NCBI GenBank assembly: GCA_012959275.1
Contig: DUDM01000061.1
Span: forward strand, 1 to 55,024
Source of the DNA: Candidatus Poseidoniales archaeon
GTDB lineage: Archaea; Thermoplasmatota; Poseidoniia; Poseidoniales; Poseidoniaceae
Direction of reading: 5' to 3'
DNA length: 55,024 bases
Positions 6,906-54,989 of the stretch are shown one piece after another. The notes under the pieces are model-generated. The model worked only from the letters and a program-made list of their open reading frames with translations. It did not search any database and was not told where the DNA came from. Made by a program: the position numbers and the translations under genes. The number at the start of each line of letters is the position of its first letter. The stretch's first letter is position 1.

Positions 6906-7655
6906 ATGATGCCTGAAATCGCAGTTCTCGTTAAGCGTGTACCAGATACCAATGCAAAAATTGCAATTTCAGGGGATAGAGTTGACCTCTCATCAGTCAA
7001 GTGGGTAATGAGCCCATACGATGAATTTGCCTTGGAAGCAGCAATGATGCACAAAGAATCCAATGGCGGTACAGTTACTGCAATCACTCTTGGTACACCG
7101 GATTGCGACAAGGTCCTAAAAGATGCAAAGGCAATCGGAGTTGACCGAATTGTCCGAGTTTGGGATGACTCATGGAGTGACTTGGACTCAAATCAAGTTC
7201 AATCAGCTTTGGTCAGTGCCTTGAAGGAACTTTCAACCGAGGTTGTCTACTGTGGAAAATCTGCTGCGGATACCGGTGCATCATCCACTGGGCCCGGCGT
7301 AGCAGAGCGAATGGGTTGGGCCAGTGTGAGCAATATTATTGGCATCGAATTCGAAGATGCCGGAGTAGAAGTTCTAATTCCACGAAATATTGGTAATGCG
7401 CGAACAGGAGTTTCACTCCCCGCCGTTATTTCCTGTGACAAAGGATTCTGCAAACCCCGCAAACCCAATGTGAAGGGCATCATGATGGCCAAGCGAGCCC
7501 AAGTTGAAGTATTGGGTGCAGATATTCCAACCTCATCAATCAATATTGTATCACATACTCCTCCTCCTCAAAAAGCATCTGGACAAAAGTTCGAAGGTGC
7601 TGGAAATGTCCCTACCGTCGTGGCAGCCTTGAGAAACGACGCCAATGTAATTTGA
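6906..7655 (+). CDS. etfB: Electron transfer flavoprotein beta subunit
   Basis: MMPEIAVLVKRVPDTNAKI, YDEFALEAA, GKSAADTGASSTGPGVAERMGW; ORF opens at 6828 but homology begins at ~6906 after AGGTGAT. Confidence 0.92.
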   Translation: MMPEIAVLVKRVPDTNAKIAISGDRVDLSSVKWVMSPYDEFALEAAMMHKESNGGTVTAITLGTPDCDKVLKDAKAIGVDRIVRVWDDSWSDLDSNQVQSALVSALKELSTEVVYCGKSAADTGASSTGPGVAERMGWASVSNIIGIEFEDAGVEVLIPRNIGNARTGVSLPAVISCDKGFCKPRKPNVKGIMMAKRAQVEVLGADIPTSSINIVSHTPPPQKASGQKFEGAGNVPTVVAALRNDANVI

Positions 7656-7665
7656 GGTGGATTAA

Positions 7666-8598
7666 ATGACAGAAATAATTGTTATAGCAGAGACAAAAGA
7701 TGGCATCATCAGTCCAGTCACCTCTGAATTAGTTAGTGCAGCAATAGTATTGGGTGGAAACCCAACTGTTATTGTTCCTGGAGTTAATGATACAGCAGCC
7801 ACTTCTGGGGCTGCGATTTCAGGTGTTAGCAAGGTCATCGCTTGTGTTGGTGAACAATTTTCAAATTACGATGCAGCCGCATGGGCAAGCGCAATAGATG
7901 CTTGCGCTCCTGCAGGAGTAATAATTTGTGCAGCCACTCAAAATGGCAAGGATTTGGGCAGTCGTTTGGCTGCACGTAGAGCCGTTTCAGTTGTGCAGGA
8001 CGTAGTGGCCATCGATGGAGGAGTCCTGACTTCACCAATTTACTCTGGCAAGGCAATGCAAAATGTTTCACTGCAGGGAGATGCGGTTGTCAGTATCAGA
8101 GCAAATACATTCTCCCCATCTTCAGATGGCGGAAATGCTGAAATCTCTGTGATGAATCAATCTGCTGACCTCAAAACAGCAGTTAGAGAAATGATCGCCA
8201 AAGCAAGTGAACGCTTAGACGTGGCTGAAGCCGATATCATCATCTCAGGCGGTCGCGGAATGCAAGACCCCGCAAACTTTGCGCACTTGGAAAGAGTTGC
8301 AGATACCTTAGGGGCTGCAGTTGGAGCAAGCCGTGCTGCAGTTGACGCTTGGGAGGACATTTCTCACGGCATGCAAGTAGGACAGACTGGTAAAACCGTT
8401 AATCCAAGTCTCTACATCGCAGTAGGAATTAGTGGTGCAATTCAGCACTTAGCCGGAATGAGGACCTCCAAGTATATCGTGGCAATCAACAAGGATGCAG
8501 AGGCTCCAATCTTTCAACATGCAGATTATGGAATCGTTGCAACTTGGCAAGATGCTCTGCCAATTCTTGAATCTGAATTAAAGGCATTACTCGGATGA
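7666..8598 (+). CDS. etfA: Electron transfer flavoprotein alpha subunit
   Basis: ISGGRGMQDPANF, VGASRAAVDAWE, QVGQTGKTVNPSLYIAVGISGAIQHLAGM, IVAINKDAEAPIFQHADYGIV. Confidence 0.95.
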   Translation: MTEIIVIAETKDGIISPVTSELVSAAIVLGGNPTVIVPGVNDTAATSGAAISGVSKVIACVGEQFSNYDAAAWASAIDACAPAGVIICAATQNGKDLGSRLAARRAVSVVQDVVAIDGGVLTSPIYSGKAMQNVSLQGDAVVSIRANTFSPSSDGGNAEISVMNQSADLKTAVREMIAKASERLDVAEADIIISGGRGMQDPANFAHLERVADTLGAAVGASRAAVDAWEDISHGMQVGQTGKTVNPSLYIAVGISGAIQHLAGMRTSKYIVAINKDAEAPIFQHADYGIVATWQDALPILESELKALLG

Positions 8599-8621
8599 TT
8601 AATCAAATAATTAATATTGAA

Positions 8622-9125
8622 TTATTCATCTAATTCTAAGGCATCTCTCGCCGCTTCGGCTTCGTCTTCAAAGCCTGTGGATTCACCCTTTCCAAATTTC
8701 TCCATCAAGGCACCTCGCAGGTCAAGGTCAGGTAAATGGAATTCTGGCATCAGATGCCAAGGTGTTAATTTAGAAAGTGTTCCAAGCAATAACCAACTTC
8801 CTGGAAGCATGAACACTCTTAGTGGTGGAATCACAAGCCCCAATTCACCGAGTTGTTCGGCCGTTTCTTTCAAGTCCTTTGTTGGAACTTCTTTGGCAAG
8901 AGCGATTTTTGCTAAAACAATGATTGCATCCTTTGTTTCGCCCGCCTCTAGAACTGTCCAATCCCAAGCATCCGTGAGTTTTTCCCCCCATGCTTTCGGG
9001 TCCTTTGCAACACCGAGAATTTCTTTTCGATGATCTGGATTAATCATTTTAGCACCTTTCCAAGCCAAGCCTGCAGCACCAATCGCTATTGCGATGGCGC
9101 CTTTTTTTTCTTTTTTACTTGACAT
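8622..9125 (-). CDS. Hypothetical protein with LETM1-like segment
   Basis: LVIPPLRVFMLPGSWLLLGTLSKLTPWHLMPEFHLP resembles the LETM1 'IP..LP...K..P..LP..F' signature; rest unassigned. Confidence 0.55.
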   Translation of the reverse strand: MSSKKEKKGAIAIAIGAAGLAWKGAKMINPDHRKEILGVAKDPKAWGEKLTDAWDWTVLEAGETKDAIIVLAKIALAKEVPTKDLKETAEQLGELGLVIPPLRVFMLPGSWLLLGTLSKLTPWHLMPEFHLPDLDLRGALMEKFGKGESTGFEDEAEAARDALELDE

Positions 9126-44049: not shown

Positions 44050-44544
44050 CTAACCTCCATCTGTACTATTGTTGTTCAAGTCACCAGATGTTGTGTTATT
44101 ACCGGAATCAGACCCATCACTGTTTGAATCATCCGTACTGGTTTCAGGATTATCGACATAACCATCGCAGTCATCATCTCCAATCTCTGCTTGAGCATCG
44201 CAAGTCTCGCTGACTACATCCATGAAGACCACCATGTAGTACCCGAACAGAAGCACGAGAATCGCGATGAAGGACGGAAGCACCCAGTTCCTATCTTCGG
44301 GAATGAAGTATGATTTGAGATTAAATGGCTTTAATTCTCCATCACCTTTCTTCGGCTCGACCTTCTTACGTCGCCTCACTGCTCTGTGTTTCTTCTCCGG
44401 TTTCGGTTCTTCTTCCGGCAATTCTTCCATCTCTTCCTCCACTGGTTCCGAATCTTCTTCCATCTCTTCCTCCACAGGTTCCGATTCTTCTTCTGGCAAT
44501 TCTTCCACGTCTTCCTCTTCCTCTACTGTGTCATCTTTGCTCAT
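44050..44544 (-). CDS. Acidic (E/P-rich) single-TM protein with Ca-binding-like motif
   Basis: EEEEDVEELPEEE repeats, TM helix WVLPSFIAILVLLFGYYMVVF, IGDDDCDGYVDN. Confidence 0.6.
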   Translation of the reverse strand: MSKDDTVEEEEDVEELPEEESEPVEEEMEEDSEPVEEEMEELPEEEPKPEKKHRAVRRRKKVEPKKGDGELKPFNLKSYFIPEDRNWVLPSFIAILVLLFGYYMVVFMDVVSETCDAQAEIGDDDCDGYVDNPETSTDDSNSDGSDSGNNTTSGDLNNNSTDGG

Positions 44545-45846
44545 TCAGGCCACCCCCTTATCGGTGAAAATTACCACTATCAATGTCGCTACTACTAAGA
44601 ACACGGCAAATCCGATATTCGTCCACCGCTCAAGTTGTTTTGGATCTCCTTCTATTATCCAAGTTGGATTGAAATCATCCTCAGGAGGTTGCATGGCAAC
44701 TAGAACTCTCTTTTCAATTTCAAATGCTAATACTGCACCAAGGAGGAAGCCTGAGACTAATTGGGAAATTCCCAATATCGGTTGAAGTATTTCTGTGATG
44801 GTGGATACCGAGCCAGCCAGCGCCATGATTATCATCGCTCGGCTACCGCGCGGAAGATGGTTTGTTTGAACAAAACCAAATTTCACGCAGAGGAAGAGAA
44901 TAATCAATGGTCTAGCTAATGATTGCATCACCCCGTGTGTCAACAGCGCAAATGATTCTGAAACCGATGCTTCGTTCAAAATTGAGCCAACCAATTCGTA
45001 ATCTACCGATTCCGACTGATAGAAGTAGTATCGTATCATTCCTGCGAACAGCACGAAAACAAGGAAGCCACCTAACAATTTTGAGCCTTGTTTGTTCAAG
45101 TGCATTAGTGCACCTATGAATAATACGAATAAGGTCAAGCCGACGGTCACCAATTCAAAATTCCATGTAAGTGAAGTGAATAGAGGGAAGGGATGTGCAT
45201 AGGCTGGCCAATACGAATAGAACATCTCACCTTCAGTGAAAATGCCCATCCAGTCGAACCAGTTCTTGCCAGCCCACAGAGTGACTGCCATGATGGCGAA
45301 TAGACCAGCCTTATCGGTGGTCTTCTCAAGATTGTCTTCACCGCTGGTTTCAGAAGTCAGGAAATTCCAGCCTATGTAGGTATAGATTATCATCATGATT
45401 ATCACCGCCGGAGACATAGCGAACCACAGCCCCCATCCGGTCTCAGAATAGGCCGGAGTGCCATGTACAAACCATGCTTCCAGGAGATTTATTATCAGTA
45501 GAGCAACGAATATCTTGAGATATGTATCTCCTTTCTTGAACCACGGCATCGGAACGGTGAACATGGCTAGGAAAAAGGCCAGTACTCCAATTCTCCATAA
45601 ATTCCAAACTAGAACACCCATCAAATCAGTGACGAAGTCACCACCTTCTTGGAAATTATATCCAAAGGCCCCTGAAGCCCATTGATAGCCAAGGTGGCAT
45701 AGTAGGAACCACAACATGAATGTCGCCCCCATACGCTGAGTCCATGTTCTGTCATCCTTCTTGAGATGAAGAATCAAGATGAATGTCAATAATAGACCAT
45801 CTAACAAAGCGCCAACAACGGATAATGCCTCAACCATATTCGACAC
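44545..45846 (-). CDS. Multi-TM membrane protein, unknown
   Basis: About 10 hydrophobic segments. Confidence 0.6.
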   Translation of the reverse strand: MSNMVEALSVVGALLDGLLLTFILILHLKKDDRTWTQRMGATFMLWFLLCHLGYQWASGAFGYNFQEGGDFVTDLMGVLVWNLWRIGVLAFFLAMFTVPMPWFKKGDTYLKIFVALLIINLLEAWFVHGTPAYSETGWGLWFAMSPAVIIMMIIYTYIGWNFLTSETSGEDNLEKTTDKAGLFAIMAVTLWAGKNWFDWMGIFTEGEMFYSYWPAYAHPFPLFTSLTWNFELVTVGLTLFVLFIGALMHLNKQGSKLLGGFLVFVLFAGMIRYYFYQSESVDYELVGSILNEASVSESFALLTHGVMQSLARPLIILFLCVKFGFVQTNHLPRGSRAMIIMALAGSVSTITEILQPILGISQLVSGFLLGAVLAFEIEKRVLVAMQPPEDDFNPTWIIEGDPKQLERWTNIGFAVFLVVATLIVVIFTDKGVA

Positions 45847-45916
45847 AGGACTATTAAACCTATTAACCTTCTACCGACAATATAATCAAAAATGCATTTA
45901 TTAAGCCGCCTGATAG

Positions 45917-46807
45917 ATGTGGGTGCTTCTGCATCCAAGCAGAAACCCTCAAATCACCAGAGCAAAAGTTCGCTTCGTGGAAGAGGTACCCAATAGAGAA
46001 GCCGGCAGTGGTATCGGTGATAGTTACCTCTACAAGAGTGAAGAAGGAATTTGGAAAGGCAGCAGAAGCCGCGCCCTTATGTCGGTGCTCAGGGGCCTTG
46101 GATGGAATCTCGCGGCACCTCTGCACATTGAACCCTGCCAATTTGGGCTCAGCAATCACAATTACAAGATTTTTTGCGGCGACTTTGGTCCACTCCTTCT
46201 GAGGATATTCGGGCCGAGCGTCGGAGATACCAACCCAGATGAGAGGCACATTCAGGACTCTGGGTTCGGAGCACATGTAGTGCAGCGTCTTGATTGGGGT
46301 AGACTTGAGACGTGGTTGCCAGGACGGACGATGCAGCGCGGAGATTGCGACAACAACCAGATGTTAGCGGCGCTCGCCCATGAATTGCGTCGCCTGCATA
46401 CGGTGGCTGGCCGGAACCACAACGACCTGAACTTCACCAATGTTCTGGTATGCGACAGTGTAGACTCCCTCGTCATTCACCTTCTCGACTTCGAATATGC
46501 TGGTCCACTTGATCCACCCTTCGACGTCGCCAATTTCTTCTGTGAGTGGATGTATGATTACCAATCGCCTCGGTGGTTTGAGCCAGATTCGACGCGCTTC
46601 CCGTCTGACGCACAGGCTCGCTCCTTCGTCGCACAATATTTGGAAATCACCGATTGCACCGATGGAGAAGTGTCTGCCTTTCTGAAAGAGGTCCAGACGC
46701 GGATTCCGTCCGTACATACATTCTGGATAGATTGGGCCATGAAGAATTTCTCAGATCTAGATGAGTATGTACAATACGCCGAGCAGCGCCAAATCCTTGT
46801 GAAATGA
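45917..46807 (+). CDS. Choline/ethanolamine kinase-like protein
   Basis: FGLSNHNYKI, GRLETWLPGRTM, HNDLNFTNVL, HLLDFEYAGPLDPPFDVANFFCEWMYDY. Confidence 0.82.
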   Translation: MWVLLHPSRNPQITRAKVRFVEEVPNREAGSGIGDSYLYKSEEGIWKGSRSRALMSVLRGLGWNLAAPLHIEPCQFGLSNHNYKIFCGDFGPLLLRIFGPSVGDTNPDERHIQDSGFGAHVVQRLDWGRLETWLPGRTMQRGDCDNNQMLAALAHELRRLHTVAGRNHNDLNFTNVLVCDSVDSLVIHLLDFEYAGPLDPPFDVANFFCEWMYDYQSPRWFEPDSTRFPSDAQARSFVAQYLEITDCTDGEVSAFLKEVQTRIPSVHTFWIDWAMKNFSDLDEYVQYAEQRQILVK

Positions 46808-46859
46808 GATATTCTTTCTCTAACTCTTGTGCGTCCGTTGGAGTATCCTGAGTGGATGT

Positions 46860-46875
46860 GGACGCTTGTGCGTCC
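46860..46875. repeat. Hairpin repeat GGACGCTTGTGCGTCC
   Basis: Perfect 6-bp arms, TTGT loop; half-copy CTTGTGCGTCCG at 46826-46837. Confidence 0.85.
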
Positions 46876-46896
46876 GGACCAAACTATTCGAATTAC

Positions 46897-47535
46897 TCAA
46901 TTTTGCCCAGTCTCATTCCACTTATACAGAATCTCCTGAGCCGAGGAATAACCATCGCAAAGGAATTGCACCTTTCCATCGCTTTCCAACACCAGACTTG
47001 GAAATGAATAGGCTCCAATTCGCCGCCGAGTGTTGAACCCTGCCTGTAATTTTGTTTCAACCTCTGCTGAGATTATTTCCGCATGGAATTCCCCTTCGTC
47101 AAGACCGAGTTCTGTGGCTAGAGAGCAAAGAACTTCTACATCTGAGGGATTTCTTGCTTCTAAGTAGTAGGCTTGTTGAATTCGGTCGAACATCTCTGGG
47201 CCCTTGTCTGCTGCCGCTATGACGGCACGACAGGCAGGGTAGGTCGACCTGCGCGGTTGACAGTTCTCCCAGAAGTCCCAGTTGAATTCCGCTCCAGTTC
47301 TGTCGTTGACTTGACGCCAAGCCTCTTTGACGTAGGACTTTGTTTCCTCAGGCATAGGCTCATCCGAGTCTCTTGCAAGTCCACCCATCACGAATTCTAT
47401 TTTCACATCCTCACTAATTGCTTTGAAAACTTCATCTCTTGCTTCTCTGAAACCCCAGCACCACGAGCACATTGGGTCAGCCACATAGTAAAGGACGGAT
47501 TCATTTGGGATGCGATCACCTTCGACTCTCCTCAA
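46897..47535 (-). CDS. DsbA-family thioredoxin-like protein
   Basis: VLYYVADPMCSWCWGFREA (CxxC after beta strand), YSFPSLVLESDGKVQFLCDG. Confidence 0.85.
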   Translation of the reverse strand: MRRVEGDRIPNESVLYYVADPMCSWCWGFREARDEVFKAISEDVKIEFVMGGLARDSDEPMPEETKSYVKEAWRQVNDRTGAEFNWDFWENCQPRRSTYPACRAVIAAADKGPEMFDRIQQAYYLEARNPSDVEVLCSLATELGLDEGEFHAEIISAEVETKLQAGFNTRRRIGAYSFPSLVLESDGKVQFLCDGYSSAQEILYKWNETGQN

Positions 47536-49115
47536 CGCATTCGTACTACTTCTGCATCATCGGTTCCTAATGGTGGGTTCTGCCAATCAGCGTCACCTGG
47601 TAATATCATTTCATCGCCCAATGAAGTCAATATTCGAGCAATTGCGAGCTGTTCGTTTCGCAGGGTATCCCACTCAATGCTGTCATCCTTCCACCGCTTC
47701 CATCGTCTGATGACTCTCCATGAACGGGAAGCATTTGCCTGAAGTACAAGATGCGCTCTCCCTGTCAGTGGCCAGAATAATATCAATATCATCCCTACAA
47801 CAATTAAAGGAATATCCGTCAGATATACCAGTAACCAATGCGAAGCAAATAATTCTCTAACCGCACTATTTTCTCCAAGTAACATCCAGATCGTTGCTAC
47901 CGTTATCATCACCCACCAAATTGGGAACAGAAGAATAGAGGAATATACCTTAATCGAACCCAGTGCTGCCTGAGAGGCATTTTTTCGAATAGCGAGGTTG
48001 GTCAGAAGTCGATTGGCATAGTATGGAGGCAATGTACCTAGGATAGCACCCCACGTGACTATTCCTAACATCCAACTCACCGACCACAACCATCGAATGT
48101 TATTGGCGATATATTTCTTGGCCGTCAACTCCTCAGGTTTGGCATCGATATCCAGTGGATGGAGCCCCAACTGGTCCAGATTCTCAAAGTGTGCAGTCGC
48201 CCTTGTTTCAATTTCAGTGGTTCTTTCTGAATCGTGCTTTGCAAGATATTCCCAACCTGCTCTCAGTCGTCTGGCTCCGAGTACAGATTCTGCATATGAT
48301 GGCTTACTTATTGCATCGACACTAGCCCGAGAACGCTCAGCATGAACAATGCTTCTCGCTCTCCATATCAGGTGCCTGTTTTGCCAAGAAGAGGTTGCAT
48401 GGCTGGCTCGCTTCAATTCGTTTTCGATATCCGAAGTCACTTCCTTGACCCATGTTCTTCGCTCAGTTTCATCAGCCGCTGCATCACCACTTCGTTCAGG
48501 GAGTGGGGGTAGGTCCATCGGCCTCTCAACGATGACTGCAGCCCTTTCTCGGAAAGTATGCGCTTCGGAATAGTGGAGGCCAACTGGAATCAATGACGGG
48601 GGTGCTAATCCTTCCTCCTCACTCTGTTCAATCGCCATCTCCATGATTCGAGCAGTGCCAGTTCGGACGCGTTTAACATCAGATTCAGAGTGGGTTGTTC
48701 CTTCTGGGAATATTATCAGTTTTCCACCTCTGGCTACCGCTTCGGCGACTAAGGAAAGTTGGTTTTCATTGTGTTTTTTTGAATCAGTCCCATTACTTTT
48801 TACATCTGAAGAGCGCATTATCGGCAGAGCACCTGAAGCCCTCATTATAGTGCCTAGAATTGGCACCTTGAACAGTGTATGCTTGGCTATCAATGACATC
48901 TTTCCAGGAAGGGTGGCCATCATCAGCATTGGGTCGATTAATCCTGATGGATGCCATGCGATGAATACGGCTCCACCCTCAGAGGGAATGTTCTCATTAT
49001 CGACCACATCCACTTCCCTGAACCATACTTGGACTATCTCTCTCGCCACTACTCGGATGCTACGATATGTCAAATTAGGCCGTTGCTGATTGGCTGGGTC
49101 TTCGGGCCATCGCAT
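47532..49115 (-). CDS. PlsC-like (glycerol-phosphate) acyltransferase with C-terminal TM region
   Basis: FIAWHPSGLIDPMLMMATLPGKMSLIAKHTLFKVPILG, IIFPEGTTHSES. Confidence 0.85.
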   Translation of the reverse strand: MRWPEDPANQQRPNLTYRSIRVVAREIVQVWFREVDVVDNENIPSEGGAVFIAWHPSGLIDPMLMMATLPGKMSLIAKHTLFKVPILGTIMRASGALPIMRSSDVKSNGTDSKKHNENQLSLVAEAVARGGKLIIFPEGTTHSESDVKRVRTGTARIMEMAIEQSEEEGLAPPSLIPVGLHYSEAHTFRERAAVIVERPMDLPPLPERSGDAAADETERRTWVKEVTSDIENELKRASHATSSWQNRHLIWRARSIVHAERSRASVDAISKPSYAESVLGARRLRAGWEYLAKHDSERTTEIETRATAHFENLDQLGLHPLDIDAKPEELTAKKYIANNIRWLWSVSWMLGIVTWGAILGTLPPYYANRLLTNLAIRKNASQAALGSIKVYSSILLFPIWWVMITVATIWMLLGENSAVRELFASHWLLVYLTDIPLIVVGMILILFWPLTGRAHLVLQANASRSWRVIRRWKRWKDDSIEWDTLRNEQLAIARILTSLGDEMILPGDADWQNPPLGTDDAEVVRMR

Positions 49116-49220
49116 CAGGAGGTGTTAGGCTTCTCTCTTTTGAGTACATCACCATACAGCAGGAAAAATATGGCTATTCTGAATCCTGAATCCTTTCTAG
49201 ATTGGGCGCCAGCGGGAGTG

Positions 49221-51251
49221 CTACTCTTCAGCGGATAACTGACCGCGAATACGCGCATCTTCCTCTGCAGCCACCCGCATACCTTCCTCAAGGTCGACGC
49301 GACTGGTCATATAGGTCCCAATCAAGATGACTATGGTTATCGTCAAGATGGCCACACGGCTGTCGTATTGCGATACTGCCAAGGCATAAAGGAATGGCCC
49401 AATCATCGCTGCAGCCTTGCCAATGAAACCAAAGAATCCGAAGAATTCTGTTGTTCGAGTTTCTGGAATCAACTTGGTGAACATCGAACGTGCCTGCGCA
49501 CCAGCAGCACCCATGGCACAACCAACGAACAGACCGAGGATTATCCATTGAAGGTTAACACTCAAACCGAGAGGTTTCCAGACATTCTCTCGTAACGTGG
49601 CTGGCCACCAATCGACGATTCCACCTTGGTCTACCTGAGTGGGATGCTTCTTGCCGATCTCTTCTTGTCCCGTTATGTTTTCATTTCCTCCTACGAAAAT
49701 GATGGAGAAACGGTGGTCATCTGTTTCAGCAAAGGCTGCAACCATGGCTGTAGCGTTCTCAATGCCGATATGCTTGATTCCGGCCTCTTCCTCTGTAGCA
49801 GCCTTATCAGCCATTAATGAGGCAGCGAAGATACCCCCTCCTACTAGGATGAAACAGAGTGCCAGACCCAGCCACCCCATCTCACGGGAGAGGATATACA
49901 TCATAGTTGCTCCAAGACATCCGGTGACAACGATGATGAAGACACAGACGAGTAAGCCATTACCAAACGAGGATACTGAAGAGGCTTCCTCAGAATAATC
50001 AGTTGCAGGGAAGTGGGGTTGGAAATTATCACGGAAAGCCGTATCACCAGCGCCCTCCTCAGAGACCCAGCCCTCATATCCACGGTCATACAATGTGGTC
50101 AATTCATACATCTTGCTCTCGTTATTCCAATCAAAAGTGAAGTCATAGCGTTCAGCATCAGTTTCTCCCTCAAGTTCAAGCGGCGCGAAACCAGCAGCAG
50201 CGACCGCCACGAAGCAATAGATAAACAGGGCCAGCATCAATGAGAACTTAGTGCCCTTTCGGTCGGCCAACTTTCCAAATAATATCGACATTGGAATTGC
50301 TACAATATTTACTGTGAGCAATAATGCGATGTTCATCGATTCATTGATTCTAAGAACCACCTCACCGAAGACACTAGCCATGGCTGCAATCGTGTTAACA
50401 CCATCGTAGAATAGCAGGTAAGCAGCAAGATAGAGAGCGAGGACTCGGAATTTCTTGATTTCTTTGAAGGTTCGTCCAACTTCAGCATAAGCGAATAACG
50501 TGGCCTTCCTTAAGCCCGGCCATTCCATCTCCGATGTTATCTCTGGCTCAGGCGTCCATTTGAACATCAATGCACCAAAGCCCCACCACCATAATGAGGA
50601 AGTCACAAAGATGACTGCAAGTTTGAAATTGGTATCCCACGGGCTAGCTAGAAGTATTCCCAAATGTACCAGAAGCAATAGTGAGCCACCCATGAATCCG
50701 TATGCATAGCCCCAAGATGAAACATGGTCCATGCAGCGTTTATCTGCAAGATGTGGCATGAAGGCGTAATAGATGACGTTACCACCAGTGAAACCGATGG
50801 AACCGATGACATACATGACCGCCAACACCATGTATCCGTCTGAACCAAAATATGGCGCTGCACCCATCATTGCGGTGAAGATGACACCAACCGCAGTGTA
50901 CCATTTCAGTAATTTCTTCTTGATAGGCATCCGGTCAGCGATGACACCTAGAGCAGGTGCCGTTATCGCCACAATTCCCATTGCAAACATCAGTACGATG
51001 GCGTAAAATGAGTCTCCAGTGACCTTGAATCCAAAGAAGTCGCTCTCACCACCTGTGGCTTGATTGAACAGACTACCCATCAGAGCAGGAGCGATAACCG
51101 TCATCACGGTTAGGGCATAAGCCTGATTCGCCCAGTCATAGAAATACCAGCCTTTCAGTGCATCCTTTTTTTCAGGAGTCATTGCTTCGATAGTTTCTTT
51201 CACTGACATTGAACCAGTTTCAGAAATTGTTCCGTTCACGGTAGCACTCAT
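49221..51251 (-). CDS. MFS transporter (UMF1/Atg22-like)
   Basis: GWYFYDWANQAYALTVMTVIAPALMGSLF, GVIADRMPIKKKLLKWYTAVGV, 12-TM-like pattern. Confidence 0.82.
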   Translation of the reverse strand: MSATVNGTISETGSMSVKETIEAMTPEKKDALKGWYFYDWANQAYALTVMTVIAPALMGSLFNQATGGESDFFGFKVTGDSFYAIVLMFAMGIVAITAPALGVIADRMPIKKKLLKWYTAVGVIFTAMMGAAPYFGSDGYMVLAVMYVIGSIGFTGGNVIYYAFMPHLADKRCMDHVSSWGYAYGFMGGSLLLLVHLGILLASPWDTNFKLAVIFVTSSLWWWGFGALMFKWTPEPEITSEMEWPGLRKATLFAYAEVGRTFKEIKKFRVLALYLAAYLLFYDGVNTIAAMASVFGEVVLRINESMNIALLLTVNIVAIPMSILFGKLADRKGTKFSLMLALFIYCFVAVAAAGFAPLELEGETDAERYDFTFDWNNESKMYELTTLYDRGYEGWVSEEGAGDTAFRDNFQPHFPATDYSEEASSVSSFGNGLLVCVFIIVVTGCLGATMMYILSREMGWLGLALCFILVGGGIFAASLMADKAATEEEAGIKHIGIENATAMVAAFAETDDHRFSIIFVGGNENITGQEEIGKKHPTQVDQGGIVDWWPATLRENVWKPLGLSVNLQWIILGLFVGCAMGAAGAQARSMFTKLIPETRTTEFFGFFGFIGKAAAMIGPFLYALAVSQYDSRVAILTITIVILIGTYMTSRVDLEEGMRVAAEEDARIRGQLSAEE

Positions 51252-51412
51252 GAACCTGCCAAATACTCAAAGGTTGTAATAATTCTGCCGGACATATAAC
51301 TGAACAGGGCATTCCTATATCGACAAGAAGGCGCCAATATACGCTCTCAAGGTATGTGAGATTTCATACTGGAAGCCCCTACAACGGGTTATTCTGATAC
51401 AGAGGGCTGCAA

Positions 51413-51425
51413 GCGTTTGTGCGTC
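51413..51425. repeat. Hairpin repeat variant GCGTTTGTGCGTC
   Basis: Diverged copy abutting the amt stop codon. Confidence 0.55.
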
Positions 51426-52639
51426 TATTCTGTGTATGCAGCCTCACCGTGAAGAACCATATCAAGGTCAGCTTGTTCAGCCTCATCGCTCACTTTCACG
51501 GGTGTCACCTTGTCGATCAACATGAGCATGCCATAGGTGAATGCGAATGCCCAGACACAGGCCAGAGCTAATCCGGCCAACTGCACCAAGAAGAAGGTCT
51601 GGTCACCATGATAGAGACCGTTTTGCCCACCGATGCTCTCAGAGGCCAGAACACCCAGCATAACGATTCCCAGAGCACCACCAACGCCGTGAACACCCCA
51701 GACGTCGAGAGCATCGTCCAATCCCTTCTTCTTTCGGAATACCACGGCATAGTAGCACACTAGACCAGCAGCCACCCCGATAATCATCGCACTTTGAGGA
51801 GTGACGAATCCTGCAGCGGGTGTTATCGTGGCCAATCCAGCAATCATACCGATGAGTAACTCCACGAATGATGGTTTTTCATCATTGTACCAAGCCAGGA
51901 GCAGCCATGTTATTGCAGCGAATGCAGCCGCAATCTGAGTGTTGATGAAGGCGACCGCTGTGACTTCGTTAACAGCCAGCGCGCTGCCGGCATTGAACCC
52001 GAACCAGCCGAACCAGAGGAGCGCAGCGCCTATGGCGACAAAGGGGACATTATGAGCGCCAGTGTCTTGGACCTTCCTTTTCCCTACGTAAATAACACTG
52101 GCTAGGGCCGCCATACCCGCTAAGGTGTGCACCACGATGCCGCCGGCGAAATCAAGCACTCCCCAATCAGCCAACATACCTCCACCCCATATCATGTGGA
52201 CGAAGGGGTAGTAGACGAGAATCTGCCAAGCCACTAGGAAGATAAGGTAGGCCTTGAAGGTTATTCGGTCGACAAAAGCACCGGTGATGAGGGCTGGTGT
52301 GATGACCGCGAACATCATCTGGTAGACTACGAATAACAATAGCGGAATGGTTCCTTCAGCACCTCCGTAGAGGTCAGATGGCCCGATGCCTATCAAGAAA
52401 GCCATATCCAAATCTCCGATGATTCCAAACAATGTATCGCCACTGAAACACAGTGAGTACCCCACAGAGACCCAGAGTATCGTCGAGATACCCATCGATA
52501 CATAGGACTGCATCATCACTGTCAGGACGTTCTTTTTGTTCACCAGACCGCCATAGAAGAAGGCCAATCCGGGTGTCATTATCATTACTAAAGCGGTGGC
52601 TATGAGCATAAAGCCCGTATCGCCAGTATCTAGAGGCAT
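51425..52639 (-). CDS. amt: Ammonium transporter
   Basis: MTPGLAFFYGGLVNKKNVLTVMMQSY, DFAGGIVVHTLAGMAALAS, WFGWFGFNAGSALA, DDALDVWGVHGVGGALG. Confidence 0.96.
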   Translation of the reverse strand: MPLDTGDTGFMLIATALVMIMTPGLAFFYGGLVNKKNVLTVMMQSYVSMGISTILWVSVGYSLCFSGDTLFGIIGDLDMAFLIGIGPSDLYGGAEGTIPLLLFVVYQMMFAVITPALITGAFVDRITFKAYLIFLVAWQILVYYPFVHMIWGGGMLADWGVLDFAGGIVVHTLAGMAALASVIYVGKRKVQDTGAHNVPFVAIGAALLWFGWFGFNAGSALAVNEVTAVAFINTQIAAAFAAITWLLLAWYNDEKPSFVELLIGMIAGLATITPAAGFVTPQSAMIIGVAAGLVCYYAVVFRKKKGLDDALDVWGVHGVGGALGIVMLGVLASESIGGQNGLYHGDQTFFLVQLAGLALACVWAFAFTYGMLMLIDKVTPVKVSDEAEQADLDMVLHGEAAYTE

Positions 52640-52733
52640 AATTCCTACTGTTTGAGCCCACTTTTAGTCATGTGGGGTGGTTTGGCATGTTAGAAGGGCG
52701 TTTTTACCAGTCTCTGGGCCAAGTCTGGGAGTA

Positions 52734-52747
52734 GACGCTTGTGCGTC
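52734..52747. repeat. Hairpin repeat GACGCTTGTGCGTC
   Basis: Perfect 5-bp arms, TTGT loop, in the amt/small-ORF intergenic gap. Confidence 0.85.
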
Positions 52748-52778
52748 CGGTAATATTTGGAATACGTAGCAGGGCAGA

Positions 52779-53042
52779 TTAAATCTTTTCCGAGATTGCA
52801 AATTCGAGAATTTTCTTAAAAAGTTTGATATTAGAAGAATGCTTCATGACAATGCAATAGAATTCTCCAATTGCCTCAGAAATTTCATCATTTCCGAATT
52901 TTTCCCAAATTTCATCTAAGTCGGGGTAATCGAAATCGGAGTGATAATTGATTATATCTTTTTCAAGATGTTTTACAGAATTCATAAAATCTTCATAGTC
53001 TTTTCCTAAAATATGTTCGCTCATTTTTATCGCCTCTTTCAT
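52779..53042 (-). CDS. Small hypothetical protein (87 aa)
   Basis: ORF overlapping upstream ORF by ATGA. Confidence 0.6.
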   Translation of the reverse strand: MKEAIKMSEHILGKDYEDFMNSVKHLEKDIINYHSDFDYPDLDEIWEKFGNDEISEAIGEFYCIVMKHSSNIKLFKKILEFAISEKI

Positions 53043-53659
53043 TTATCCAATTCATTCATTTTCTTTAACCTTTCAATCGTTAATTCATGTACACTGCCCA
53101 TGTCTTTACAGAATGGACAAGGCTCGCTAGGGTCGGGATGGTGAGTGGCGCAGAATGTTCGTCCACACCTGCACCGCTTTGTGCTTGCTTGCGCCGCTGC
53201 ATCGCACTTCTTTGACCCCGGTAGACCCATGCAGACGGTCACCGCTTCCGAGGCGTACTGATCTGCCTGAGACAGGCTTCTGAAGGCCGCCATTCGAGGT
53301 GCGGTTGCAGGAACCCAATGCCAAATGAAATCGTCTGTGATGTTCTCCTTTATCCATCGCGTGCTGAGCGATGGCGGGGGTATCGGCGTCCAGACTCGGT
53401 AGGGGTACAGATGGGCGCTCTCCTCATCACCCTCGTAATACTCGAATGCCGGTTCTACTTTCATTCTCTCCTCTCTTGAGTCGGATATTTCTTTTTTCAC
53501 TTTAGATTTCTTTTGATGCCAAGGTTTGAACCTCAGGTTGCATTTCCAAACCCAACCCATCTCTGATCCTTTTTCTTCAGCTGTAACTCCATCTCTGAAG
53601 AACAGCCTCAACGGTGTTTCACAGATGTTACAATCCGGGATGTTGTCCTCTAAACTCAT
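53039..53659 (-). CDS. Cys/His-rich putative zinc-binding protein
   Basis: CNICETPL, CRCGRTFCATHHPDPSEPCPFC. Confidence 0.65.
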   Translation of the reverse strand: MSLEDNIPDCNICETPLRLFFRDGVTAEEKGSEMGWVWKCNLRFKPWHQKKSKVKKEISDSREERMKVEPAFEYYEGDEESAHLYPYRVWTPIPPPSLSTRWIKENITDDFIWHWVPATAPRMAAFRSLSQADQYASEAVTVCMGLPGSKKCDAAAQASTKRCRCGRTFCATHHPDPSEPCPFCKDMGSVHELTIERLKKMNELDK

Positions 53660-53793
53660 TCTTCTGACTCCTTTTCTTTATTTTTCATTTCCAACCTTGA
53701 AATCTTCTCCCACATGATGACAATCATGAGAATTTCCAAGAATGTCCAGTATTCATGCGCATAGGGGGCCATTTCTAATAACCAATTAAACAT
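53656..53793 (-). CDS. 45-aa putative single-TM small protein
   Basis: MFNWLLEMAPYAHEYWTFLEILMIVIMWEKISRLEMKNKEKESEE; ATGA overlap with the 53659 start (manual translation). Confidence 0.5.
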   Translation of the reverse strand: MFNWLLEMAPYAHEYWTFLEILMIVIMWEKISRLEMKNKEKESEE

Positions 53794-53875
53794 ATTTTTT
53801 CATCTCCAATTTTTTCATCGCTGGCGTATCAGACTCATTTTCATCACTTGCATTAATCTTCAATTCAATTTCCAT
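53786..53875 (-). CDS. 29-aa putative leader/small protein
   Basis: MEIELKINASDENESDTPAMKKLEMKKYV; overlaps start of the 45-aa ORF (manual translation). Confidence 0.3.
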   Translation of the reverse strand: MEIELKINASDENESDTPAMKKLEMKKYV

Positions 53876-53940
53876 GAATCCTCATAACCAGCGGAAAAAG
53901 TATTTATTTGCTACCTATATTAACCCAACGAGCAAAGTCT

Positions 53941-53955
53941 GGACGCTTGTACGTC
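53941..53955. repeat. Hairpin repeat GGACGCTTGTACGTC
   Basis: One-base variant of the consensus. Confidence 0.8.
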
Positions 53956-53971
53956 TCATTTGTTGCTGATA

Positions 53972-54850
53972 TTACTGAGTTCCATGGGTGATAGGTTCCG
54001 GGTCAATTCCGGGTTGATAAAGACGGAATTTTCTATCTTCGGAGAAGAACAGGTCATATTCTCTATCATCATGCAAATTATGAGAAAGTCTGGTCTTGAG
54101 ATTCGTGGTCATCATATAGGCGTGGCAGTTGATTGCGGTTTCAGTATAGGCTGGATACTTGTCATCATACCACTCTCGAATTTCATTTCCAGTCAGAAAT
54201 TGCCCCTGCTGTATGTTCATGTCTGCCACCATCTCATGCATGCAATCGACTAATGTAGTCGCGTAATGTTTCTGAAAAGCACGGCGGTATTTTGCATATT
54301 CCTTTTTGCGTACGGTGTGCTCTCGGTCGGTCCCGGTCTGCTCACCTTTACCGGAGATGCATTCGATGCCAATCCCCTGATTACAATACTCACAAGGTAC
54401 AGCATCACATATCACCCTGATAAATTCCAACTCTGATGAAATCGGCATCTCGGTTGGACCGGGGTTTCGCCATTGGAAAACTTCAGTCGCCGCCCATAGG
54501 CAGTAAAGTGAATCCTCTGTTGGTGGCTCAATCCCGCCTTGCCAATGCGAACCGAAGTTACCCATTCTCTGAATGTGCTCTAGGTAATGCCCCAATCGTA
54601 TAGGAATTCTCGACCTGACCGAAGTAAACATGTCGTTGGTTGACTTCATTGGATGCCGTTCAATTTCAAACTCATCGGCCAATGACTCGACGATGACTTC
54701 CCAGAACTTCCGCAGATTGTTCAGTGCACCTTCTGGGTCTTCCTCGGCATATTTTTCTGCCCGGGATAGATATTTTTGCAAAGTTGCCGAAGTGTCTTGA
54801 GCGGGCATCGAGTTCTCCATTATTTTCAAACGTTTAACCATTGCACCCAT
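53972..54850 (-). CDS. DUF4145-like protein with C-terminal extension
   Basis: AEKYAEEDPEGALNNLRKFWEVIVESLADEF...RLGHYLEHIQRMGNFGSHWQ...ATEVFQW. Confidence 0.6.
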   Translation of the reverse strand: MGAMVKRLKIMENSMPAQDTSATLQKYLSRAEKYAEEDPEGALNNLRKFWEVIVESLADEFEIERHPMKSTNDMFTSVRSRIPIRLGHYLEHIQRMGNFGSHWQGGIEPPTEDSLYCLWAATEVFQWRNPGPTEMPISSELEFIRVICDAVPCEYCNQGIGIECISGKGEQTGTDREHTVRKKEYAKYRRAFQKHYATTLVDCMHEMVADMNIQQGQFLTGNEIREWYDDKYPAYTETAINCHAYMMTTNLKTRLSHNLHDDREYDLFFSEDRKFRLYQPGIDPEPITHGTQ

Positions 54851-54944
54851 TGAAGCACAACCCGATTACCGAAATTTCCGCTTCTACTTCTCAAACAGAT
54901 AATTGTGACCAAACTTAGCGCACGGACAATGGAGGTGGGTTTGT

Positions 54945-54956
54945 ACGCTTGTGCGT
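54945..54956. repeat. Hairpin repeat ACGCTTGTGCGT
   Basis: Copy of consensus (context GTACGCTTGTGCGTCC). Confidence 0.8.
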
Positions 54957-54989
54957 CCAGAAATATCTAGTGCTCGTAGCGGAAGGTGA

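Follow-up and report, generated by a model that had tools for sequence, protein, structure and literature searches.

The distal end of a 55,024-nucleotide contig from a Poseidoniales archaeon probably holds an array of gene cassettes, joined at a dif-like crossover site and built, shuffled and exchanged by site-specific recombination; such arrays appear in a few genera of Poseidoniaceae. This reading is based on the architecture of the site, its orientation, homology breakpoints, reordering of cassettes and transfer between genera. The whole contig (DUDM01000061.1; contig C61 of genome G000) is referred to here as the window; the genome is 1.92 Mb and 77% complete. Poseidoniales (Marine Group II) are abundant uncultured archaea of the surface ocean, and the reasons for their accessory gene variation are poorly understood.

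A first-pass annotation of the window reported a hairpin repeat dispersed between accessory genes. The repeat is real: every copy named there is found, above chance. With up to three mismatches, the 16-mer has six matches in the window against 1.09 expected, and none of 100 shuffled sequences reaches six. All copies are intergenic and share one orientation, as had been claimed, and at the same threshold the first 46 kb contain none. A possible decayed site at 45915..45942 (+ strand; candidate at 45922), which may mark the array edge, scores only 12.1 bits and is within scan noise.

The hairpin is present as described, and the best copies fold as a perfect 6-bp stem with a 4-base loop; its extent had been set too small, as conservation runs over 28 bp. 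In an alignment of 56 copies, taken from seven genomes of the two genera g1 and g2 and from G040, the one genome that represents a third genus (g10), information is clearly above background from position -7 to +20. The site consists of two 11-bp inverted arms around a 6-bp spacer (GGRTNTGGACG - CTTGTG - CGTCYANACC). Mirror symmetry is found at most positions; two central positions do not match, and the spacer therefore has direction. This asymmetric spacer is near-invariant and its conservation exceeds that of the arms, an estimate that is biased towards intact cores because loci were fetched by core match and divergent sites are under-sampled. When the arms alone are scanned and the spacer is ignored, CTTGTG is recovered in almost every strong match; it is also kept in some additional sites (L043, L137) that came to light solely when the fetched contigs were scanned. 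For archaeal dif sites, a pair of 11-nt inverted repeats around a 6-nt spacer has been described (PMC8371274), and the present site has this Xer/dif-type layout in arms, spacer and total length.

In the window, all sites are on the plus strand and the cassettes on the minus strand. Site 5 (54937..54964; GGGTTTGTACG CTTGTG CGTCCAGAAAT; 32.7 bits), with the motif copy GTACGCTTGTGCGTCC at 54943-54958, lies 60 bp from the contig end. Cassette A (53942..54943) encodes a 292-aa protein (53972-54850) annotated at first as DUF4145-like; it matches DUF7669 (PF24706) and no DUF4145 model. Site 4 (53935..53962; AAGTCTGGACG CTTGTA CGTCTCATTTG; 24.3 bits; motif GGACGCTTGTACGTCT at 53941-53956) is 17 bp past the stop of this ORF. 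Cassette B (52734..53941) had been credited with four small ORFs, of which two are supported instead: a 206-aa, weakly TerY_C-like protein (53039-53659) and an 87-aa ORF (52779-53042). Site 3 (52727..52754; GGGAGTAGACG CTTGTG CGTCCGGTAAT; 32.4 bits; motif AGACGCTTGTGCGTCC at 52733-52748) is 32 bp past the stop of the latter. Cassette C (51412..52733) carries the ammonium transporter gene amt (51425-52639). Its end is marked by the diverged site 2 (51405..51432; motif 51412-51425; 12.4 bits), which contains the amt stop codon. Cassette D (46861..51411) contains MFS/ATG22-like (49221-51251), acyltransferase (47532-49115) and DsbA-like (46897-47535) genes. Site 1 (46854..46881; GGATGTGGACG CTTGTG CGTCCGGACCA; 38.8 bits; motif GGACGCTTGTGCGTCC at 46860-46875) follows 23 bp after the DsbA stop. 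Together with a second, damaged site in which one arm is changed (46815..46842; motif 46822-46835), it bounds a gene-less mini-cassette of 39 bp (46822-46860).

Beyond the mini-cassette lies a choline-kinase/APH-like gene (45917..46807, plus strand), which is inverted relative to the array. It is followed by a conserved flank of 433-aa and 164-aa genes (44050..45846, minus strand), common to G001:C4 and G005:C39. Besides an ammonium transporter, the cargo in or beside arrays includes lipid, membrane and redox enzymes as well as many unknown proteins.

Contigs with several sites keep to one orientation throughout (12 contigs, 20 extra strong sites, none discordant). Reading the window genes forwards, a site usually lies about 0-50 bp after a stop codon. 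This position, together with the perfect stem-loop of the best copies, would suit a transcription terminator or an RNA 3'-end processing hairpin, as the first-pass annotation proposed. Such a role is very improbable: none of 53 sites has a run of four T in the 20 bases that follow on the gene strand, the exact motif is missing from 167 of 174 family genomes, the roughly 7-15 copies per genome occur in few genera, and termination leaves the homology breakpoints and cassette transfer described below unexplained. A recombination site explains the repeat better than a terminator does, and the further proposal of a protein-binding palindrome holds insofar as a recombinase site is one. Sites also pile up at contig ends (14 of 53 within 300 bp, against 4.3 expected), as if populations differ there.

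The distribution of the site is narrow. A search of the genome and its relatives, which the first-pass annotation had suggested, finds only seven copies of the 12-base core in the whole genome. Four are in the window, C27 has two and C14 one; variants occur elsewhere, for example at the end of C3. The core is not a genome-wide signal. Exact cores occur in seven of 174 family genomes, and sites are essentially confined to two genera of Poseidoniaceae and one genome of a third. For the remaining genera, as for the other family, near matches are not clearly above a reversed-pattern control. Nor did a search for these arms around any spacer reveal a dif common to the family, as matches to the arms consensus in other genera are at control level. 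A scan of 85,488 species with a stricter pattern matched 20 contigs; every contig among them with at least two sites belongs to Poseidoniales or to an archaeal bin that matches the genomes analysed here, and the matches outside Poseidoniales are single and isolated and are read as chance. These genome-wide statistics come from pattern searches, and the genomes are fragmented and 57-91% complete. A plasmid collection searched for the site gave no matches. Viral carriage was considered and set aside: core matches in IMG/VR are single ones that chance can account for, and viral contigs lack two recurrent flanks. One site-bearing contig, G002:C22 (L192; JAOMAZ010000029.1), matches a public record labelled Deltaproteobacteria AH-558-G13; the label is read as wrong, since G002 falls in the genus of the window and has its core genes.

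Homologous DNA of different genomes starts or stops at the site. Relative to the site, homology extends from -1500 to +18 between L048 and the window, from 0 to 228 between L059 and L136, from 0 to 139 between L047 and the window, from 0 to 88 between L049 and L056, and from -48 to 13 between L044 and L139. Chimeric contigs could mimic some of these breakpoints; independent assemblies agree nonetheless.

Cassettes are also reordered beside the same chromosomal flank. The 433-aa gene directly adjoins the array in both the window and G001, a congener of the window genome. In the window the order beside it is A, B, amt, MFS-PlsC-DsbA, mini-cassette and choline-kinase-like gene; in G001:C4 it is PlsC-DsbA, DUF4190 and B, and the homologue of the choline-kinase-like gene is found in another site-bearing array of that genome (C22). 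One array appears to split a gene pair, PolC and the gene for a 311-aa protein. The two are adjacent and convergent in G003, G006 and G016, whereas in G001 both are found close to contig ends, each next to a site, which is what an intervening array would produce. From the PolC stop as far as the site, G001 and G004 have identical sequence; beyond it they differ. In G004, about 1 kb with no recognisable site is inserted between the two genes (L165, G004:C11, 1010-2009); this is perhaps a cassette with decayed sites.

Some cassettes are common to more than one genus. A complete cassette of 450 bp, with a DUF4190 gene between two sites, follows a malic-enzyme gene in G006 and DsbA in G001, which belong to two genera. 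The sequences beyond its two sites are unrelated, and the second site is decayed in both. The amt cassette is present in three of 174 family genomes and has 87% nucleotide identity between g1 and g2, compared with 63% identity for the PolC protein. Between genera, cassette A is about 91% identical over its start, counted from the site onward. The homology breaks at the site, the reordering of cassettes beside one conserved flank and the cassettes common to two genera support well the suggestion, already made in the first-pass annotation, of a recombination site joining gene cassettes. A third-genus amt copy (L172, G124:C157) has no dif-like site and is flanked by a 163-bp direct repeat (6978-7140 and 8468-8630; 98%), an arrangement that would fit another route of arrival, with duplication at the ends.

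Two types of gene-less mini-cassette are observed. The 39-bp unit of the window recurs in G000:C27 and G005:C87. The second type is about 59 bp long and is built around a CCCGGG hairpin; when this hairpin was searched alone in 324 genomes of the order, it was found only in G006, G016 and G040, all of them site-bearing, mostly beside a site or half-site. At G016:C60:28507, G016:C100:9629 and G006:C46:15 (L207, L209, L213), the hairpin module is followed by half-sites (GACGCAC, with unrelated sequence after), which are possibly traces of insertion into non-consensus targets.

The recurrence of these mini-units between genomes would also fit a passive REP- or MITE-like palindrome, with genes rearranged by ordinary homologous or illegitimate recombination and no dedicated site-specific reaction. 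As with REP elements, the copies are short palindromes that lie between genes and near gene ends. This explanation is unlikely, since the breakpoints fall repeatedly at the site although 28 bp is a short length for homologous recombination; orientation is never mixed; and the spacer is conserved beyond the arms, as strand exchange would need. Unlike REP elements with their RAYT enzymes, the sites mark cassette boundaries in a fixed orientation, and no Y1 transposase is found in nine genomes.

Under site-specific recombination, a cassette would comprise one or a few genes, usually ending right before a 28-bp site. A tyrosine recombinase would bind the arms of two sites, synapse them in a single orientation and exchange strands across the spacer. 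A reaction between two direct sites would excise the cassette as a circle carrying one site; in the reverse reaction, the circle would be inserted at another site or, in rare cases, at a non-consensus target, for example the end of PolC. Through its asymmetry, the spacer would hold all sites of an array in one orientation.

The most plausible candidate for the enzyme, by elimination and at somewhat under even odds, is a chromosomal XerA homologue. All eight g1 and g2 genomes contain a syntenic tyrosine recombinase gene next to a RimK-like gene; the best match of the recombinase in the PDB is Thermoplasma XerA, and it is called a XerA homologue here because it scores 182-196 bits, under the NCBIfam XerA cut-off of 220. 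The gene is interrupted in the G016 assembly. No other site-specific recombinase was seen in every one of the eight genomes. G005:C16 carries an additional XerA, which has the same XerA/RimK-like pairing and probably comes from a contaminating relative. What counts against the site-specific reading is that no recombinase gene adjoins any array; the linked recombinase that the first-pass annotation suggested looking for is not found.

A dedicated phage-type tyrosine recombinase or serine recombinase, carried by an element absent from the assemblies, is nearly as likely to work the same cassette system. Sites occur in about three genera, and the XerA homologue is a core gene, present in every genome searched, including G003, which has no detectable sites; XerA alone therefore does not account for the site distribution. 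Serine recombinases are found in three of the eight genomes, and because the genomes are incomplete a dedicated enzyme may be missing from them. Against this, the XerA homologue is the sole PF00589 or PF00239 match in G001, G004 and G016, and no SSV-type integrase was found. The other tyrosine integrases (325-346 aa; L130, G000:C43, 1510-3182, and L129, G005:C88, 4046-5657) lie beside tRNA-Glu at the same chromosomal spot with no sites nearby; they look like ordinary tRNA-targeting integrases and were set aside as array enzymes. They possibly belong to a tRNA-targeting element such as the Charybdis proelements, which have been reported in Marine Group II (PMC12324425).

The recombination-site reading can be compared with known systems. 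Archaeal Xer/dif (XerA and dif of Pyrococcus and Thermoplasma) has the same 28-bp arrangement of arms and asymmetric spacer, and the host has a XerA homologue. In contrast to the single chromosomal dif, the present site has many copies per genome in gene arrays and is missing from most genomes with a XerA homologue; action of XerA on it is putative. A dif for chromosome dimer resolution would be a single site conserved across relatives, whereas here there are multiple sites and the arms are not conserved in other genera. The pdif/dif modules of Acinetobacter are also genes bounded by Xer-type 28-bp sites and moved without a recombinase of their own, with Xer dependence putative in the present case. 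Site-bounded genes and mobility are common to both systems; the orientation pattern differs. Flanking sites in Acinetobacter are mostly opposite in orientation and on plasmids (PMC7399989), whereas in Poseidoniaceae, which are archaea, all sites are direct repeats and lie in chromosomal contigs.

Like the present arrays, integrons and CALINs (archaeal integrons among them) consist of directly oriented cassettes in which a site follows the gene, and they undergo shuffling and transfer. They differ in having a folded attC; the site here is a minimal, double-stranded-type 28-bp site, and neither IntI nor attI was found. An attC is 57-141 bp long, and the stop codons of amt and the DUF4190 gene lie inside the site, which leaves no room for one. 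Paired R boxes of attC (RYYYAAC / GTTRRRY) anchored at the site are found at none of 53 sites. A search for IntI in these incomplete genomes found only the XerA homologue and the tRNA-Glu-associated integrases, far under the TIGR02249 cut-off; the Xer homologue scores 100-105 bits on the integron-integrase model, where the cut-off is 265. Although archaeal integrons exist (PMC9668308) and the cassettes are directly oriented and mostly single-gene with a site just past the stop codon, an integron of known type, in the form of an attC cluster without integrase (CALIN), is scarcely credible. The cassette system is integron-like in its working and is not an integron.

Xer/dif modules and integron-like arrays are already known kinds, and the Poseidoniaceae arrays are a variant. 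In the part of the literature covered, no report of such a system in Poseidoniales or any archaeon was found. A 28-bp site marking cassette boundaries would allow part of the mobile gene pool of Poseidoniales to be mapped straight from metagenomes, and would account for assembly breaks at these places. More tentatively, the arrays may represent an archaeal form of cassette capture independent of integrons, in which, in abundant plankton of the ocean, a housekeeping XerA uses arrays of minimal dif-like sites to shuffle and transfer single-gene cassettes. If XerA drives the system, a chromosome-maintenance enzyme would be doing the job of an integron, which bears on the origin of integrons from Xer recombinases.

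A flank of 18-20 bp (ACTCCCAGACTTGGCCCA) recurs right beside many sites in genomes of three genera. It is found at 52710-52733 in the window and at L009, L040, L051, L053, L054, L137, L138 and L171.
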